Assembly: GCF_900188405.1 (NCBI RefSeq)
Contig: NZ_FZOF01000019.1
Coordinates: forward strand, 62,001-126,000
Source of the DNA: Actinacidiphila glaucinigra
GTDB lineage: Bacteria; Actinomycetota; Actinomycetes; Streptomycetales; Streptomycetaceae
DNA: 64,000 nucleotides
Reading direction: 5' to 3'
In this document: piece after piece, positions 9,190 to 17,701 of the stretch
Position numbering within the stretch: the first letter of the stretch is position 1
How the letters are laid out: every line of letters begins with the position of its first letter
Made by a program: the position numbers and the translations under genes
Notes under the pieces: generated by a model
The model's database searches: none
What the model was told of the DNA's origin: nothing
Seen by the model: only the letters and a program-made list of their open reading frames with translations

Positions 9190-12100
9190 TCAGGACGCCT
9201 CGGTGGGCGCCTCGGCCGTGGCCTTGGCGGCGGCCTTCTTCGCCGTCGTCTTCTTGGCCGCGGTCTTCTTGACAGCGGTCTTCTTCGCGGCCGTCTTCTT
9301 CGCGGCGGCCTTCTTCGCCGGTGCCTTCTTCGCGGCCGTCTTGCGCGCGGCGCGCTTCTTCGGCTCCGCCTCGGCGGTCTCCGCCTCCACCGTCCCCGCC
9401 TCGGCCGCCGGGGTCTGCTCCGGCGCCTCGGCACCGGGGACGACCACGACCGCGGCCTCCTCGCCGGAGGACGGCGCGCCCGCGGGGGCGGACACCCGGC
9501 GCGTGGCACGACGGCGGACCGGCGCGGCCGGCTCCTGGACCTCCGCCACGGGCTCCGGCTCGGGGGCCGGTGCCGGGACGGCCGTCTCCGCCGCGGAGAC
9601 CACCACGGTGGCGGCCTCACCGGCGGGCGCGCTCGGCGCGGTGGCCTTGCGGGTCGCGCGGCGCCGGCCGCGGACCGGTGCCACGGGCTCCTCCGCCGGC
9701 TCGACGGCGCCCACGGCGACGGGCGTCTCGACGGCGGTGGCCGTCGCGGCCTCCGCCGCCTGGGGCTCGGTGACCGGCGCGACCGCCGGGACGACGGTGA
9801 CGATCTCGGCCGTGGCGTCCGGCGAGCTCACCGGAGCGGTGACCCGTCGCGAGGCCCGCCGCCGGGAACGCCGGCCGACCGCAGCCTCGGCCTCCGCCGG
9901 GCTGCTGTACCACTCCTCGTCCCCGCCGACCGCGGGCACCAGCTCGGCCTCGGTGACCGCGACAGGCTCCAGCTCGGGAGCCTCCTCCGCGGCCTCCTCG
10001 GCCTCGGTGACGGCGGCGGTCTCCGCGACCGCGTGCTCCTCCGCCGCGCCGCCGCGACGGCGCTTGCGCTTGCCGCCGCCACCGGTCGCCGTGGCCTGGT
10101 CCATGTGGACGATGACGCCGCGGCCGTTGCAGTGCACGCAGGTCTCGGAGAAGGACTCCAGCAGGCCCTGGCCCACCCGCTTGCGGGTCATCTGCACCAG
10201 GCCCAGCGAGGTGACCTCGGCCACCTGGTGCTTGGTGCGGTCCCGGCCCAGGCACTCCAGCAGCCGGCGCATGACGAGGTCGCGGTTGGACTCCAGCACC
10301 ATGTCGATGAAGTCGATCACGATGATGCCGCCCAGGTCGCGCAGCCGCAGCTGGCGCACGATCTCCTCGGCCGCCTCCAGGTTGTTCCTGGTGACCGTCT
10401 CCTCCAGGTTGCCGCCCTGGCCGGTGAACTTGCCGGTGTTGACGTCGATGACGACCATCGCCTCGGTCCGGTCGATCACCAGCGAACCGCCGCTCGGCAG
10501 CCAGACCTTGCGGTCCAGCGCCTTCAGCAGCTGCTCGTCGATCCGGTACGTGGCGAACACGTCGACCTCGGAGGTCCAGCGGCCCAGCCGCTCCGCCAGG
10601 TCCGGCGCGACGTGCGAGACATAGCCGTGGATGGTCTCCCAGGCGGTGTCGCCGCTGACGATGACCTTGCCGAAGTCCTCGTTGAAGATGTCGCGGACGA
10701 CCCGGACGGTCATGTCCGGCTCGCCGTAGAGCAGCGACGGGGCGTTGCCGGTCTTGGCCTTCTTCTGGATGTCCTCCCACTGCGACTGCAGCCGCTCGAC
10801 GTCACGGCGCAGCTCGTCCTCGCTCGCGCCCTCGGCGGCGGTGCGCACGATGACGCCCGCGTCCTCGGGGACGATCTTCTTGAGGATCTGCTTCAGCCGG
10901 GCCCGCTCGGTGTCGGGCAGCTTGCGGCTGATGCCGGTCATCGAGCCCTCGGGCACGTAGACCAGGTAGCGGCCGGGCAGCGAGACCTGGCTGGTCAGAC
11001 GCGCACCCTTGTGGCCGATCGGGTCCTTGGTGACCTGGACCAGCACCGACTGGCCGGACTTGAGGGCAGCCTCGATGCGCCGCGGGCCGTTGCCCATGCC
11101 CAGCGCCTCGAAGTTGACCTCACCGGCGTACAGCACGGCGTTGCGGCCCTTGCCGATGTCGACGAACGCGGCCTCCATGGACGGCAGCACGTTCTGGACC
11201 TTGCCCAGGTAGACGTTGCCGACGTACGAGGTCGCCTGCTCCTTGTTGACGTAGTGCTCGACGAGGACGCCGTCCTCCAGCACGCCGATCTGCGTCCGGT
11301 CGCCGTTCTCACGGACGACCATCACACGGTCGACCGCCTCACGACGGGCCAGGAACTCGGCCTCGGTGATGATCGGCACCCGGCGGCGGCCCTGCTCGCG
11401 GCCCTCGCGGCGCCGCTGCTTCTTGGCCTCCAGGCGCGTGGAGCCCTTGATGGACTGCACCTCGTCGACCGGCTCCGACGGCTTGCGCGGCTCACGGATC
11501 TTGACGACCGTGCGCTCCGGCGCGTCCTCGCCCAGGCTCTCCTCGGCCGGACCGTCACCACCGCGGCGGCGACGGCGGCGCCGGCGGCGGCTGGTGCTGC
11601 TGCTCTCGGCGTCCTGCTCCTCGTCGTCCTCGGCCTCGTCCGAGGCACCCTCGTCCTCGGCCTCCTCGTCCTCGCCTGCGGTCTCGTCGCCGTCGGCGGC
11701 CTCACCGCGACGACGACGACGGCCTCCGCGACGGCGCCGGCGGGAGATCCGCTCGCCGCCCTCGTCCTCGTGCTCGTCGGCCTCGTGCTCCTCGGCCTCC
11801 GCCTCGTCCTCGTGGGCGGCCTCGGGCTCCTCGTCGGCGTGCTCCGTGACGGCGGTCTGCGCGACCTCCACGGCCTCCGCGGGCTCGCCACGGCGACGGC
11901 GGCGACGGCGGCGTCCGCCGGCGTGCTCCTCGGCCTCCGCCTCGGGCTCCTCCGGCTCCTCGTGCTCCGCGGGCTGAACGGCCTGCGCCGCCTGCGCGGC
12001 GGTGGGGGCCTGGAACACCGGCGCCTGGAACACGGCCACGGGCGGGCGCACGACCCGGCGACGGCCGCGCGCGGGGGCAGCCTCGGGCTCGGGGGCAGCC

Positions 12101-13290
12101 TCGGGCTCGGGCGCGACCTCGGGCTCGAACTCGGCGCCCTGCGCCTCCTGCACCTCGATGACGATCGTGTCGGCGGGAACGCCGAACGCCTCCGCGACGG
12201 CCGCGACCGCGGCGACGCGGGCCTCGTCGACGGTGTCGCCGTAGCCGCGGATCTCGTAGGCGTCCTCGACCTCGACGGCCCAGCCGGAACCGTCCGGGAC
12301 GGCCTTGGCCGTGTAGGTGCGCCGCTCCGGGGCGGCGGTCGCGGCGGCCTCGCCACCGGCCTCGCCCGTCGCCTCCTCACGCGGCGCGAGCGCGCCCGGC
12401 TTCAGACGGCGCGAGCCGTCGTCGGCGGCGAGGAAGGAGGCGGCCGGAGCGGTACGCCGCCGCGAACGGGTGGCCCTGGACTTCTCCGCCTGGGGCTTGT
12501 CGGCCTTCCCGCGCTTCGGACGCTCGACGGGCTCCTCCTGGAGGGCCTTCGCCGGAGCGTCGGCGGCGGCCACGGCCACGGCCGCGTCCTCGGCCGGGAC
12601 GGGCTCGGGACTGGTCACCTTGCGCGTGGCACGACGCCGCCCACGGGCCGGAGCAGCCGGCTGCTCGGCCTGCTCCGCCACGGGGGCGGCCTCGGCGTGC
12701 AGCGGCAGATCGGCCTGAAGTTCCTTGGCCTGCGTGTCGGCGGCGGCCACGGGGCCACTCGTCTCCTCAGCGGCCGGGACGGGCTCGGGGCTGGTCACCT
12801 TGCGCGTGGCACGACGCCGCCCACGGGCCGGAGCAGCCGGCTGCTCGGCCTGCTCCGCCACCGGGGTCTCGGCGGCCTCGGCCGCAGGCGTCTCCGCGGC
12901 GGGAGCCTCGGGGGCGGTCGCCGGGGCGGCGGCCTTGCGCGTCGCGCGACGGCGGGCCGGGGCGGGGGCGGCCTCGGCCGTCTCCTGCTCGGACCCGGCC
13001 GGCGGCTGCTCCGGGGCGGCGGCCTTGCGGGTCGCCCGGCGCCGGGTCCGCGCGGGGGCGGCCTCGGCCTCGCCGGAGGGGGCCTCGGCCGGTATGGCCG
13101 GCGGCTCGGCGGCCGCCGTCGCGGAGGTCACGTCCTGGGCGGCCTCGCCGGCCGCGGGCGGACCCGCCGGACGGCTCGCCGCCCGGCGACGGCGGCGCGG
13201 AGCGGCCGTCGCCTCGGTGTCGGTGCCGCCGGAGGCGGCTTCGGTGGCGCCGTTCTCGGGCGCCTCGTTCGGCTCGTTCTGCTCGAGCAT
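9190..13290 (-). CDS. rne: Ribonuclease E/G family endoribonuclease with long disordered arms
   Basis: This endoribonuclease matures rRNA/tRNA and initiates mRNA decay. From ATG 13290 (MLEQNEPNEAPENG) it has 1366 residues. The catalytic core is internal: an S1 RNA-binding domain near 680-722 (SYVGNVYLGKVQNVLPSMEA), Asp in VIDVNTGKFTGQGG near 948, DFIDM near 991, and the Zn-link motif CVHCNGRG near 1050. The N-terminal 630 residues and C-terminal 300 residues are low-complexity Ala/Glu/Pro-rich sequence with Arg clusters. RRRATRK-like motifs occur four times in the N arm and three times in the C arm. The tail is a histone-H1-like Lys/Ala repeat (PAKKAAAKKTAAKK). Central placement of the catalytic domain is typical of Streptomyces RNase E. 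The frame is open to 13725, but the upstream part lacks homology. Confidence 0.97.
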   Translation of the reverse strand: MLEQNEPNEAPENGATEAASGGTDTEATAAPRRRRRAASRPAGPPAAGEAAQDVTSATAAAEPPAIPAEAPSGEAEAAPARTRRRATRKAAAPEQPPAGSEQETAEAAPAPARRRATRKAAAPATAPEAPAAETPAAEAAETPVAEQAEQPAAPARGRRRATRKVTSPEPVPAAEETSGPVAAADTQAKELQADLPLHAEAAPVAEQAEQPAAPARGRRRATRKVTSPEPVPAEDAAVAVAAADAPAKALQEEPVERPKRGKADKPQAEKSRATRSRRRTAPAASFLAADDGSRRLKPGALAPREEATGEAGGEAAATAAPERRTYTAKAVPDGSGWAVEVEDAYEIRGYGDTVDEARVAAVAAVAEAFGVPADTIVIEVQEAQGAEFEPEVAPEPEAAPEPEAAPARGRRRVVRPPVAVFQAPVFQAPTAAQAAQAVQPAEHEEPEEPEAEAEEHAGGRRRRRRRRGEPAEAVEVAQTAVTEHADEEPEAAHEDEAEAEEHEADEHEDEGGERISRRRRRGGRRRRRGEAADGDETAGEDEEAEDEGASDEAEDDEEQDAESSSTSRRRRRRRRRGGDGPAEESLGEDAPERTVVKIREPRKPSEPVDEVQSIKGSTRLEAKKQRRREGREQGRRRVPIITEAEFLARREAVDRVMVVRENGDRTQIGVLEDGVLVEHYVNKEQATSYVGNVYLGKVQNVLPSMEAAFVDIGKGRNAVLYAGEVNFEALGMGNGPRRIEAALKSGQSVLVQVTKDPIGHKGARLTSQVSLPGRYLVYVPEGSMTGISRKLPDTERARLKQILKKIVPEDAGVIVRTAAEGASEDELRRDVERLQSQWEDIQKKAKTGNAPSLLYGEPDMTVRVVRDIFNEDFGKVIVSGDTAWETIHGYVSHVAPDLAERLGRWTSEVDVFATYRIDEQLLKALDRKVWLPSGGSLVIDRTEAMVVIDVNTGKFTGQGGNLEETVTRNNLEAAEEIVRQLRLRDLGGIIVIDFIDMVLESNRDLVMRRLLECLGRDRTKHQVAEVTSLGLVQMTRKRVGQGLLESFSETCVHCNGRGVIVHMDQATATGGGGKRKRRRGGAAEEHAVAETAAVTEAEEAAEEAPELEPVAVTEAELVPAVGGDEEWYSSPAEAEAAVGRRSRRRASRRVTAPVSSPDATAEIVTVVPAVAPVTEPQAAEAATATAVETPVAVGAVEPAEEPVAPVRGRRRATRKATAPSAPAGEAATVVVSAAETAVPAPAPEPEPVAEVQEPAAPVRRRATRRVSAPAGAPSSGEEAAVVVVPGAEAPEQTPAAEAGTVEAETAEAEPKKRAARKTAAKKAPAKKAAAKKTAAKKTAVKKTAAKKTTAKKAAAKATAEAPTEAS
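12591..12861 (-). repeat. 91-bp near-identical direct repeat inside the RNase E N-arm
   Basis: Bases 12591-12681 recur at 12771-12861 with one difference (12610 A versus 12790 G), an offset of exactly 180 bp. Both copies encode APARGRRRATRKVTSPEPVP in frame. The near identity of third positions suggests recent duplication or gene conversion rather than selection on protein alone. Confidence 0.9.
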
Positions 13291-13508
13291 GCGGGCATAT
13301 CTCCCGTCACGCTCCCGGGCGCCGCACCCTGATCCGGTTCGCGGCGGTCCGCGTCCTCGCGGTTCCACCGCCCGGGGGCGCGGGCGCCACACGGGAGCTG
13401 TCGTATCGCTCGTCGGCACCGCCCAAACGGGCCGACGAAAGTCTCGTCTGATGTGTGCTGCCGGACCCGGGTTTCCCCAGATGCGTCGGCCGCACAACGA
13501 CGACGGTC

Positions 13509-14282
13509 CTAGGCGGAACCCTCCGGCACCGCCGCGGCATCGCGGTCGGGCGCAAGCGGATCGGTCACCGTACCGGTCTCCTCGTGGAGCGGCCCCTGCG
13601 CCAGCCTGGTCACCGCAGCGGGGACCGGCGGCGCGAGGTCGGCCACCGCACGGAGGCCGGACAGGACGTCGTCGGGTCGTACGGCAGGTGTCACATGCCG
13701 AACAACCAGCCGCAGTATCGCACAAGCTGCTGGTGTCGGCCTATCGGCACCCTGTTCGAACATACCGTCCTGCGCCCCGGCCACCTGCGGATCCACCGCT
13801 TCGAGCCGGGCGACGGCCTCGCGCGCGTCGAAAGTCCGCACGCCGTTCTTCGTCATGCGCTGGACCTCGACGGCCCCCGCGGCGAGGAACGCGGCCACGG
13901 CCCGCTCGGCCGCGGCATGCTCCACACCGTCCAGTCGCAGCTGCCACACGGACGCCTCGAGCCGCTCGACGAGCCCCGAGGTACGGGCCTCGACGGCGTC
14001 GACCACGTCCAGGCCGTCCGGCAGTGACTCGTCCAGCAGCAGGCGCAGCTTCTCCGGCTCACGGGCCTCGCTGAGCGCGATCTCCAGGTACTCGGCCTCG
14101 CTCGCGACGCCGGTGGGTGCGGCGTTGGCGTACGACACCTTGGGGTGCGGGGTGAAGCCCGCCGAGTACGCCATGGGCACCTCGGCGCGGCGCAGCGCCC
14201 GCTCGAATGCGCGCTGGAAGTCACGGTGGCTGGTGAACCGGAGGCGGCCGCGCTTGGTGTAGCGCAGTCGGATGCGCTGCAC
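13509..14282 (-). CDS. DUF2344 / TIGR03936 radical SAM-linked protein
   Basis: The 257 residues begin at GTG 14282 with VQRIRLRYTKRGRLRFTSHR, followed by FQRAFERALRRAEVPMAYSA and GFTPHPKVSYANA, the hallmark of DUF2344. In many bacteria this domain follows, or is fused to, the TIGR03960 radical SAM protein, next to rng-rplU-rpmA. Here the partner gene is upstream at 15688-17613, with one repeat protein between. The biochemical role is not established. RNA or ribosome modification is a context-based guess. An upstream CTG in frame is a possible extended start. Confidence 0.9.
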   Translation of the reverse strand: MQRIRLRYTKRGRLRFTSHRDFQRAFERALRRAEVPMAYSAGFTPHPKVSYANAAPTGVASEAEYLEIALSEAREPEKLRLLLDESLPDGLDVVDAVEARTSGLVERLEASVWQLRLDGVEHAAAERAVAAFLAAGAVEVQRMTKNGVRTFDAREAVARLEAVDPQVAGAQDGMFEQGADRPTPAACAILRLVVRHVTPAVRPDDVLSGLRAVADLAPPVPAAVTRLAQGPLHEETGTVTDPLAPDRDAAAVPEGSA

Positions 14283-14384
14283 CGCGGGTGCGGGCGGCGG
14301 GCCTTCGGGCTGTCGCTTGCCCAGTGTCGTTCAGTCCCTCGTGCGTCTGGTGACCCCGGACGGGGTCGCTTGTCGTCTTCCAGA

Positions 14385-15491
14385 TTACTGGGGGTTCCGG
14401 CCTTCCGGTTCCCCACGCCGCCCGCCGCGCTCCACCGGTCGCGGCGCGCCCGTCAGCGCGGCACGCAGATCGGCCCGCACCCCGCGCACGGTCTCCCGCA
14501 CCGTGGCCAGCGCGTGGCGCACCGCCCGGCGCCCCTCGGCCGCAGCCCGCCGCACCGGCCGCCACACGGGCAGCACCAGGGCGCGCCACACCCAGGCCGC
14601 CGGAACCACCAGGACCACGGTGACGAGCCACTTCAGCGCCCGCCCCAGGGCGCGCGACACGTACCCCGCCACGCGCCAGGCCACCAGCAGGGCGTCCCGG
14701 ACCTCCCGGGCGACCGGCACGAGCACCCGGCGCCACAGGAAGAGCAGCGGGGCCACGACCACCCACCGCACCAGCCACGCCACCCCCAGGGCCACCGGCA
14801 CCAGGACACAGCCGTACAGCGCGACCGCCGGAACCACGACAAGCACCCGCACCGCCCACCGGGCCAACCACACCGCCCCGGCCGCCACCGGCACCAGGAC
14901 ACAGCCGTACAGCGCGACCGCCGGAACCACGACGAGCACCCGCACCGCCCACCGGGCCAACCACACCGCCCCGGCCGCCACCGGCACCAGGACACGGCCG
15001 TACAGCGCCGCCAAGGGCGCCACCAGCAGCGTCCGGAGCACCCACCCCGCCCCCGCGCCGGACGCCCGGCCCAGCGGGACGAGCACGTACCGCCACAGCG
15101 CGGCCAGCGGCAGGACGACCAGCACGGAGACCGCCCACCCCACGGCGACCCCCACGGCCCGCCCGGCCGGCGCAAGCACGTACCGCCACAGCGCCACCGC
15201 CGGGACCACGGCCAGGTACCGGACCAGCCCCCGCACCGCCCACCCGAGGGCCCGCCCGGCCGGCGCCAGCGCATACCGCCACAGCGCCACCGCCGGGGCG
15301 ACCACGAGCACCCGGACCAGCCACTTCCCGAACCGCCCCAGGGCGCGGCCCGCCACCGTCAGGGCGTCCCACGCGATACGCAGCGGAAGCACCACCACCA
15401 GCGCGACGATCCGCGCCGGCATCCTGATCGCCACCGTCAGGCAGCCGTCCCCGTTCTCGCCGTACCCGCCGGCGTCCCCCCGTTCCCGCAT
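14385..15491 (-). CDS. Repetitive membrane protein built of 31-residue units
   Basis: No family is recognised. From ATG 15491 (MRERGDAGGYGENGDGC) the protein has 368 residues; the frame is open to 15644 and a GTG nearer 15430 is also possible. The body is about eight tandem copies of a 31-residue amphipathic or membrane unit of the pattern VV-PAVALWRYVL-P-GRA-G---W-VR-L. Each unit has a hydrophobic helix ending in a Trp-Arg pair. The C-terminus is basic (RRAAAEGRRAVRHALATV). The units could form stacked membrane hairpins or half-helices. It lies between the two radical-SAM-linked genes on the same strand and is probably co-transcribed. Dense codon bias alone could give an open frame in GC-rich DNA, but the regular 31-residue period argues it is real. 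Confidence 0.7.
   Translation of the reverse strand: MRERGDAGGYGENGDGCLTVAIRMPARIVALVVVLPLRIAWDALTVAGRALGRFGKWLVRVLVVAPAVALWRYALAPAGRALGWAVRGLVRYLAVVPAVALWRYVLAPAGRAVGVAVGWAVSVLVVLPLAALWRYVLVPLGRASGAGAGWVLRTLLVAPLAALYGRVLVPVAAGAVWLARWAVRVLVVVPAVALYGCVLVPVAAGAVWLARWAVRVLVVVPAVALYGCVLVPVALGVAWLVRWVVVAPLLFLWRRVLVPVAREVRDALLVAWRVAGYVSRALGRALKWLVTVVLVVPAAWVWRALVLPVWRPVRRAAAEGRRAVRHALATVRETVRGVRADLRAALTGAPRPVERGGRRGEPEGRNPQ
14791..15000 (-). repeat. 93-bp tandem repeats in the 31-residue repeat gene
   Basis: Units 14791-14883 and 14884-14976 are identical except for one base (14841 A versus 14934 G), and a third, partly diverged unit begins at 14977. The period of 93 bp equals 31 codons. More diverged units of the same length continue to about 15410. 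The almost exact pair indicates very recent unit duplication, and copy number may vary between strains. Confidence 0.93.
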
Positions 15492-15641
15492 GCCCGAACC
15501 GTACGCCCGGAAGCGCGCCTTCCCCCCTCCCGGGGACGGAAGCAGGCCTCCCCGCGGGCGGCGCGGGACGACGCTCCCCGGCCCCGGCACCAACCGCCCT
15601 GCCGCGAAGCCGGCCTGACGGTCGTTCCGCTCCCCCGTACG

Positions 15642-15676
15642 CACGAAGGCCCCCGCCGTGCGGCGGGGGCCTCGTG
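15642..15676 (-). terminator. Stem-loop downstream of the TIGR03960 radical SAM gene
   Basis: CACGAAGGCCCCCGCCG (15642-15658) pairs with CGGCGGGGGCCTCGTG (15661-15676) with one bulged A. It lies 12 bases beyond the stop of the radical SAM gene, before the repeat protein. It may split the unit, or reduce read-through. Confidence 0.75.
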
Positions 15677-15687
15677 TCCGCGTCGGG

Positions 15688-17613
<1,926 letters not shown>

Positions 17614-17675
17614 CAGAGGTGTCTTTCGTGAGCTGGCAAGGGTGACCATTCAGCGTAACGCGTCACAGAGGGCTT

Positions 17676-17701
17676 CCCGGCCGCGCTGCGCGCGGGCCGG
17701 G
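17676..17701 (-). terminator. Hairpin after the CYTH-CHAD gene
   Basis: CCCGGCC/GGCCGGG with adjacent GCGC pairing forms a compact hairpin with a small bulge, located between the CYTH-CHAD stop (17729) and the radical SAM start on the same strand. It is a moderate terminator candidate. Confidence 0.5.

Follow-up and report, generated by a model that had tools for sequence, protein, structure and literature searches.

The window analysed here is a stretch of 64,000 nucleotides from Actinacidiphila glaucinigra. Part of its minus strand carries, in order, a gene that we take to be RodA-like (our own assignment, made without a domain scan), a CYTH-CHAD gene, a TIGR03960 gene, the repeat gene that is our subject, a DUF2344 gene and a gene for RNase E. 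The repeat gene (14385..15491, minus strand) starts with ATG, encodes 368 residues and has homologues in other genomes. Its upstream neighbour is the TIGR03960 B12-binding radical SAM gene (15688..17649, minus strand; E 1e-210), whose frame is intact to its end, and its downstream neighbour is the DUF2344/TIGR03936 gene (13509..14282, minus strand; E 1e-49 and 5e-52). By a codon-based choice of ORFs, the repeat gene is alone in this interval. A strong hairpin (15642..15675, minus strand; z -5.1 for a 66-nt stretch) sits between TIGR03960 and the repeat gene and is possibly the terminator of TIGR03960; a consensus scan of 13400-17700 found no promoter or T-tailed terminator. RNase E (9190-13725, minus strand) has a long tail of tandem Lys-Ala (9223-9342), along with low-complexity stretches rich in Arg/Glu.

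The repeat protein contains 12.5% Arg and 5.4% Trp and has a net charge of +35; A, V, L, I, F and W together make up 60% of it. Six clean 31-residue units occupy residues 58-243 (14763..15320, minus strand; 15228-15320, 15135-15227, 15042-15134, 14949-15041, 14856-14948 and 14763-14855), and the ends, judged by eye, are divergent but unit-like, so that the ‘about eight’ units of the initial annotation are a fair count. Its report of adjacent 93-bp units with a single-base difference also holds: Tandem Repeats Finder gives a period of 93 at 14791-15008 with 98% matches, and the neighbouring stretches 14901-14993 and 14808-14900 (together 14808..14993, minus strand; starting at residues 167-172) differ at 1 base. 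Alignments delimit a conserved N-terminal segment, GCLxxAhRxPhRhhAhhVVLPLRhhWDhL (15318..15446, minus strand), which was used as the family probe, and a conserved C-terminal segment running from REVRDALLVAWRVAGYVSRALGRALKWL... to a basic tail (14448..14762, minus strand). A search of the window's own genome returns one match to the repeat protein.

The repeat gene is a genuine coding gene. GC by codon position in its frame is 0.84/0.55/0.95, and the low second-position and high third-position values are the pattern of DUF2344 and TIGR03960. Between G000 and G025, dN is 0.14 and dS 0.27 by NG86 (0.11 and 0.83 by YN00), values that rest on an alignment that may misplace units. A spurious or decaying frame in GC-rich DNA, without a functional product, might be suspected from the long overlapping frames on other strands and from the absence of the gene from 11 of 34 genomes of the genus; it is opposed by the codon signature, the conserved protein ends, the open frame in 23 genus members and a residue-level helix pattern that is also present in distant families, and we find it barely credible. 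Loss of the frame in close relatives, together with absence of a translated product, had been named at the outset as a result that would count against the gene. On the frame the answer is mixed: the gene is missing from those 11 genomes, but no frame-broken copies were found.

Occupancy of the interval in Actinacidiphila and beyond

The genus sample consists of 35 genomes of Actinacidiphila, in the family Streptomycetaceae, 34 of which have both DUF2344 and TIGR03960; both are missing from the remaining genome, G015, which is 71% complete. The repeat gene is found in 23 of the 35, which is 23 of the 34 with both neighbours, and 21 of the 23 copies lie between both flanks. The other two, in G002 and G013, are on contigs that carry one flank and end inside the interval, and the G002 copy is itself cut by the contig end. 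When the intervals of the remaining 11 genomes were searched with a profile of the 23 copies, no repeat gene was detected. Measured between match ends, interval size varies from 0.75 kb (G009) to 16.9 kb (G031). On a two-protein tree (midpoint root; a short piece of the radical SAM protein for G022), 9 changes account for the 11 absences, against a mean of 9.5 and a minimum of 4 for shuffled labels (1000 shuffles); absence is thus scattered over the tree. Nine changes among 34 genus genomes show that the repeat gene is dispensable, and its scattered absence indicates a conditional function. Copies in the genus are 244-502 residues long, with start codons picked by script or by us, in line with the variable length that had been anticipated.

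Several intervals have further peculiarities. In G022 (L065), TIGR03960 has its orientation reversed with respect to the other two genes, DUF2344 and the repeat gene. In the clade of G007, G018, G019, G020 and G021, the TIGR03960 match spans two TGA codons, with an open frame of 644-646 residues; the match probably extends past the true start. The intervals of 10 of 34 genomes contain members of an amino-acid permease family, and those of 7 of 34 contain members of a ROK-type regulator family (L056, L039, L060, L066 and others), both families being named from Pfam searches of the G003 copies only. These families also occur in genomes that have no repeat gene (G012, G021, G032 and G033) and are missing from the window interval.

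Across the family, the N-terminal profile matched 74 of 150 genomes, a set that includes the 35 Actinacidiphila genomes; the matches fall in 4 of 17 genera. Among 20 regions examined outside Actinacidiphila, 16 have both flanks, 2 have DUF2344 only and 2 have neither, which places DUF2344 next to the repeat gene in 18 of the 20. The two flankless regions (G038 and G053) hold second copies upstream of a CYTH-CHAD homologue; these copies (L110 and L108, respectively) are Arg-rich, and that of G038 has a net charge of +97. With a wider profile, matches were obtained in 30 of 296 genomes from the class. In genus g9, among at least 27 genomes listed for this profile, the 20 matched genomes are 6.8-11 Mb in size, and the unmatched ones (at least 7) are mostly 5.8-7.1 Mb, with one of 8.2 Mb. 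Nine of the 30 matched genomes are outside Streptomycetaceae (8 in family f18 and 1 in f4). The 9 regions concerned (3.9-12 kb) contain no TIGR03960 or DUF2344, and the neighbours compared there (MFS, M13 peptidase and methylguanine methyltransferase) include no conserved functional partner. The 43 Streptomycetaceae copies used below (23 from the genus and 20 others) range in length from 190 to 543 residues when measured from the conserved motif or start.

The repeat gene had been described as wedged into a normally adjacent gene pair. This wording is misleading, as the repeat gene is a usual occupant of the interval in Streptomycetaceae. A recent insertion into the pair is ruled out, since 23 of 34 genus genomes have the repeat gene at this place and 18 of the 20 further regions have it next to DUF2344.

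Mobile DNA does use this place. PMC5311408 reports for phiJoe-type serine integrases an attB at a distance of 74 bp from the end of a B12-binding radical SAM gene that resembles SCO2606; in S. coelicolor, this site is filled by the SCO2603 element, of which SCO2603 is the integrase. A stretch resembling that attB, identified by eye against a primer in the same source, lies at the 3' end of TIGR03960 in the window (15764..15783, no strand assigned), and no element is inserted there. Copies of the TIGR03960 C-terminus of 23-28 residues are present in G013, G014 and G027, and proteins with resolvase/recombinase domains are present in the intervals of G013 (L034), G023 (L064) and G027 (L051), with a homologue in G014 (L047). 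The phiJoe-type hotspot is, to judge from the sequences, used within Actinacidiphila too. The chromosomal place of the repeat gene is thus of the same kind as the site described in PMC5311408, but what fills that site is mobile DNA, whereas the repeat gene is outside the element in G013 and G014, where both can be placed: it lies past the duplicated TIGR03960 end and adjoins DUF2344. G027 has the duplicated end without a repeat gene. Mobile-element cargo is ruled out, since in G013 and G014 the repeat gene is not between the att copies of the element. Its position beyond the duplicated end in these two genomes, together with the intact TIGR03960 frame in the window, marks it as a resident gene.

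The initial annotation recognised no family, and database searches agree. The window protein has no score above cut-off for any Pfam or NCBIfam family. For the 23 genus members, Pfam gives 0 families at E 0.01, and NCBIfam gives 2 families, in 2 members and 1 member, with best E values of 0.0015 and 0.0022. A profile search of PDB sequences gives a single weak match, to a receptor fusion (E 0.014). Viral relatives were sought as well, with no match in the phage collection and none confirmed in IMG/VR, and a literature search found no paper on the repeat gene or on SCO2600-SCO2602. On its sequence relationships, the repeat gene belongs to an unnamed actinobacterial family.

Arginine periodicity and the lengths of insertions and deletions

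Across the 43 copies, distances between Arg/Lys residues peak at 4, 7-8, 11-12, 15, 18-19 and 22-23. The counts alternate steeply (392 pairs at distance 4, 27 at 6, 410 at 7, 29 at 9, 516 at 11, 38 at 13 and 387 at 15), and 11 is the commonest distance. The best Arg period is 3.78 for the 23 genus members, 3.76 for the 20 other Streptomycetaceae copies and 3.82 for the 9 distant homologues (one of them a 46-residue fragment), with scores of 0.44-0.48 in the three groups, where shuffling reaches at most 0.07-0.09. The window protein by itself has a period of 3.70 and a score of 0.40 against a shuffled maximum of 0.32, a single-protein value that is inflated because shuffling also destroys the repeats; agreement between the divergent groups is the stronger evidence for periodicity. 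The controls TIGR03960, DUF2344, CYTH and RodA have no Arg periodicity beyond their own shuffles.

When the phase is set by Arg only, Arg (cosine 0.55), Lys (0.46) and His (0.40) lie on the stripe, Trp (0.18) is nearer to it, and Leu (-0.36), Ile (-0.35) and Pro (-0.50) are opposite. The window protein has the same layout (R 0.55, L -0.39, P -0.45 and W 0.27). The commonest spacings between proline pairs (20, 27, 31, 38, 42, 49, 53 and 60) differ, by eye, by 7 and 11, and less common ones also occur (39, 46, 56 and 61). Sequence identity within the 43 proteins is highest at a lag of 11 (0.18, against a median of 0.115), followed by a lag of 38 (0.179). In 38 of the 43 members, whole-length hydrophobicity power is higher than in any of 200 shuffles, although repeats alone can raise this power. 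The 31-residue unit is present as first described, but as one of several spacings, and the Trp-Arg ‘caps’ assigned to it are pieces of a helical stripe of Arg, which Trp borders.

The same geometry appears in the lengths of insertions and deletions (indels). Among 66 pairs of relatives with at least 60% identity, 160 indels of 3-30 residues were collected, with deduplication by length and by the first residues of the inserted string, so that one event may have been counted repeatedly. Their lengths fall mainly at 4 (27 indels), 7 (43), 8 (8), 11 (27), 12 (17), 18 (10) and 19 (6); lengths 5 and 6 occur once each, and 9, 10, 13 and 17 are missing. The other 20 indels are 3 residues long (3) or have scattered lengths from 14 to 30. 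At a period of 3.6, R is 0.58 for the full set (n=160), 0.69 at 65% identity (n=43) and 0.70 at 70% identity (n=22), and the corresponding maxima in 2000 null sets with geometric lengths are 0.28, 0.57 and 0.64. Indels in control proteins stay within the null, being reached by 9-60% of null sets (RNase E N-terminus 0.13-0.15, CYTH 0.27, RodA 0.27 and DUF2344 0.10), in control frames that were taken stop to stop or at fixed length and include some non-coding sequence. Random indels simulated and realigned with the same aligner (40 sets of 43) give a mean of 0.17 and a maximum of 0.41 at 25% substitution, and 0.16 and 0.35 at 45% substitution; the aligner recovers the simulated lengths without visible bias.

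Such a pattern is unusual in that evolution leaves a readout of helix geometry, and this readability makes the indels a sequence-only test that points to a continuous helix. Selection for the register of the stripe would account for whole-turn indels and is the cause that we infer; a mutational cause, recombination between helix-periodic sub-repeats, may be at work instead and would give similar indel lengths.

Hydrophobicity and predicted structure

The protein is very hydrophobic, in keeping with the hydrophobic cores of the initial annotation: mean hydrophobicity is 0.75 on the Fauchere-Pliska scale, which is high for a surface helix, with a modest moment of 0.18-0.27. The window copy is a poor example of a long striped helix. 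Its strongest hydrophobic period is 3.455 and not 3.8, and the highest Eisenberg value of any of its 18-mers is 0.80. Its units 3-6 contain uncharged runs of 22, 26 and 26 residues that could span a membrane, so that three units resemble transmembrane segments. When junctions were jittered as a test, only 7 of the 41 members open to it scored above 95% of their jittered versions (the other 2 of the 43 have too few cuts), and the window protein falls below its own jittered copies (9.4 against a mean of 17.4). Phase coherence over the whole length is thus not supported for the window protein or for most members. The window protein may be a member that is drifting toward transmembrane-like units.

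Structure prediction, proposed as a check in the initial annotation, was run with AlphaFold on alignments of two sequences. The window protein is predicted as a near-continuous helix over residues 17-143 and 149-347 (pLDDT 57.8) and the L031 protein as a chain of helices to residue 336 (pLDDT 55.2); both models are mostly helix, but their confidence is low.

A candidate in-plane membrane helix and its alternatives

The reading that we tentatively favour, at somewhat less than even confidence, is a very long, mostly uninterrupted Arg-striped amphipathic helix that would lie flat in the cytoplasmic leaflet as a coat or scaffold of the membrane. Arg would form a stripe along one face with Trp and Tyr beside it, and Leu, Ile, Val and Pro would make up the opposite face; Arg would rest on the lipid phosphates, with the hydrophobic face immersed in the acyl chains. 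A helix of such length, whose polar side is dominated by Arg, with Trp close to the border and a broad aliphatic face, is best explained as lying in plane in an anionic leaflet. The number of units would set helix length (the window protein would be ~50 nm long as a straight helix, at 0.15 nm per residue), and an off-turn indel would rotate the remainder of the stripe into the hydrocarbon, so that surviving indels would be whole turns. A helix that is continuous in vivo, its location in the membrane and in this leaflet, and its work as a coat are what we infer from these patterns. A structural coat or scaffold is the simplest proposal for function, and the ‘membrane scaffold’ of the initial annotation would be compatible with it.

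The protein could instead be polytopic, each ~31-residue unit being one spanning helix and the Arg/Trp stretches interfacial caps, an arrangement implied by the initial annotation that we regard as somewhat unlikely. The window protein itself speaks for such an arrangement, with its three Arg-flanked uncharged runs of 22-26 residues and its 18-mer of 0.80 (Eisenberg), as does the high mean hydrophobicity. At least one uncharged run of at least 17 residues is present in 27 of the 43 members; the median is one per protein, and 16 of the 43 have none when His is taken as charged (9 of the 43 when it is uncharged). Against a polytopic protein, Arg recurs through the supposed spans, and basic residues at both unit ends would leave no inside/outside bias. 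RodA, which is polytopic and encoded in the same neighbourhood, is comparable in its high hydrophobicity but has neither the Arg periodicity nor the whole-turn indels of the repeat family. A different partner for the stripe is also conceivable: Arg might bind another polyanion (polyphosphate, nucleic acid or polyisoprenyl phosphates), or the helix might pack into a right-handed bundle, with the membrane secondary. Right-handed coiled coils have periods above 3.6, as does the repeat family at ~3.8, and a CYTH-CHAD gene, which we take to belong to a polyphosphate-linked family, is two genes away in the window, and a CYTH-CHAD homologue adjoins the second copies of G038 and G053. We nevertheless consider this improbable, given the 60% share of these six hydrophobic residues (A, V, L, I, F, W) in the window protein, the mere 2.2% of acidic residues that members average, and several member loci with no CYTH gene between RodA and TIGR03960.

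Streptomycetes contain storage lipid, and long amphipathic helices are known from the surfaces of lipid particles. Apolipoprotein A-I has a long amphipathic helical region with prolines, its helices carrying mixed charge. It differs in a lower hydrophobic fraction (0.40 in Table 1 of PMC5889406), and the prolines of the repeat protein are on the hydrophobic face. The nearest design appears to be perilipin 4 (Plin4), described in PMC5889406 as a giant repeated amphipathic helix with 11-residue periodicity, in which repeat number sets the length of interaction. The repeat protein likewise has 11-residue periodicity and would be a very long, repeated amphipathic helix; it could on these grounds be a bacterial counterpart of Plin4 that coats streptomycete triacylglycerol inclusions. 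According to the same source, however, Plin4 is weakly hydrophobic, has almost no aromatics and carries three basic and two acidic residues per 33-mer, with no insertions or deletions between repeats. The repeat family is far more hydrophobic (mean H 0.75), Trp-rich, Arg-dominated and strongly basic (5.4% Trp and net +35 in the window protein), and it has frequent indels, mostly of whole turns (160 of 3-30 residues in 66 pairs). None of the neighbours scanned was recognised as a storage-lipid gene, and a lipid-droplet coat seems to us still more improbable than a polyanion-binding or bundled helix. We do not file the repeat family with Plin4; the likeness would be one of design, and no sequence relation is claimed.

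If the in-plane membrane helix is correct, perilipins and apolipoproteins, known for their giant amphipathic helices, would have a strongly hydrophobic bacterial counterpart in this streptomycete family. By a further and quite doubtful extension, its members would be in-plane membrane rulers, single helices of up to several hundred residues whose length is tuned by the gain and loss of whole turns, an evolvable belt or curvature scaffold beneath the cell membrane in filamentous actinobacteria. The 43 copies, at 190 to 543 residues, would then provide a natural length series for relating helix length to membrane binding and curvature.
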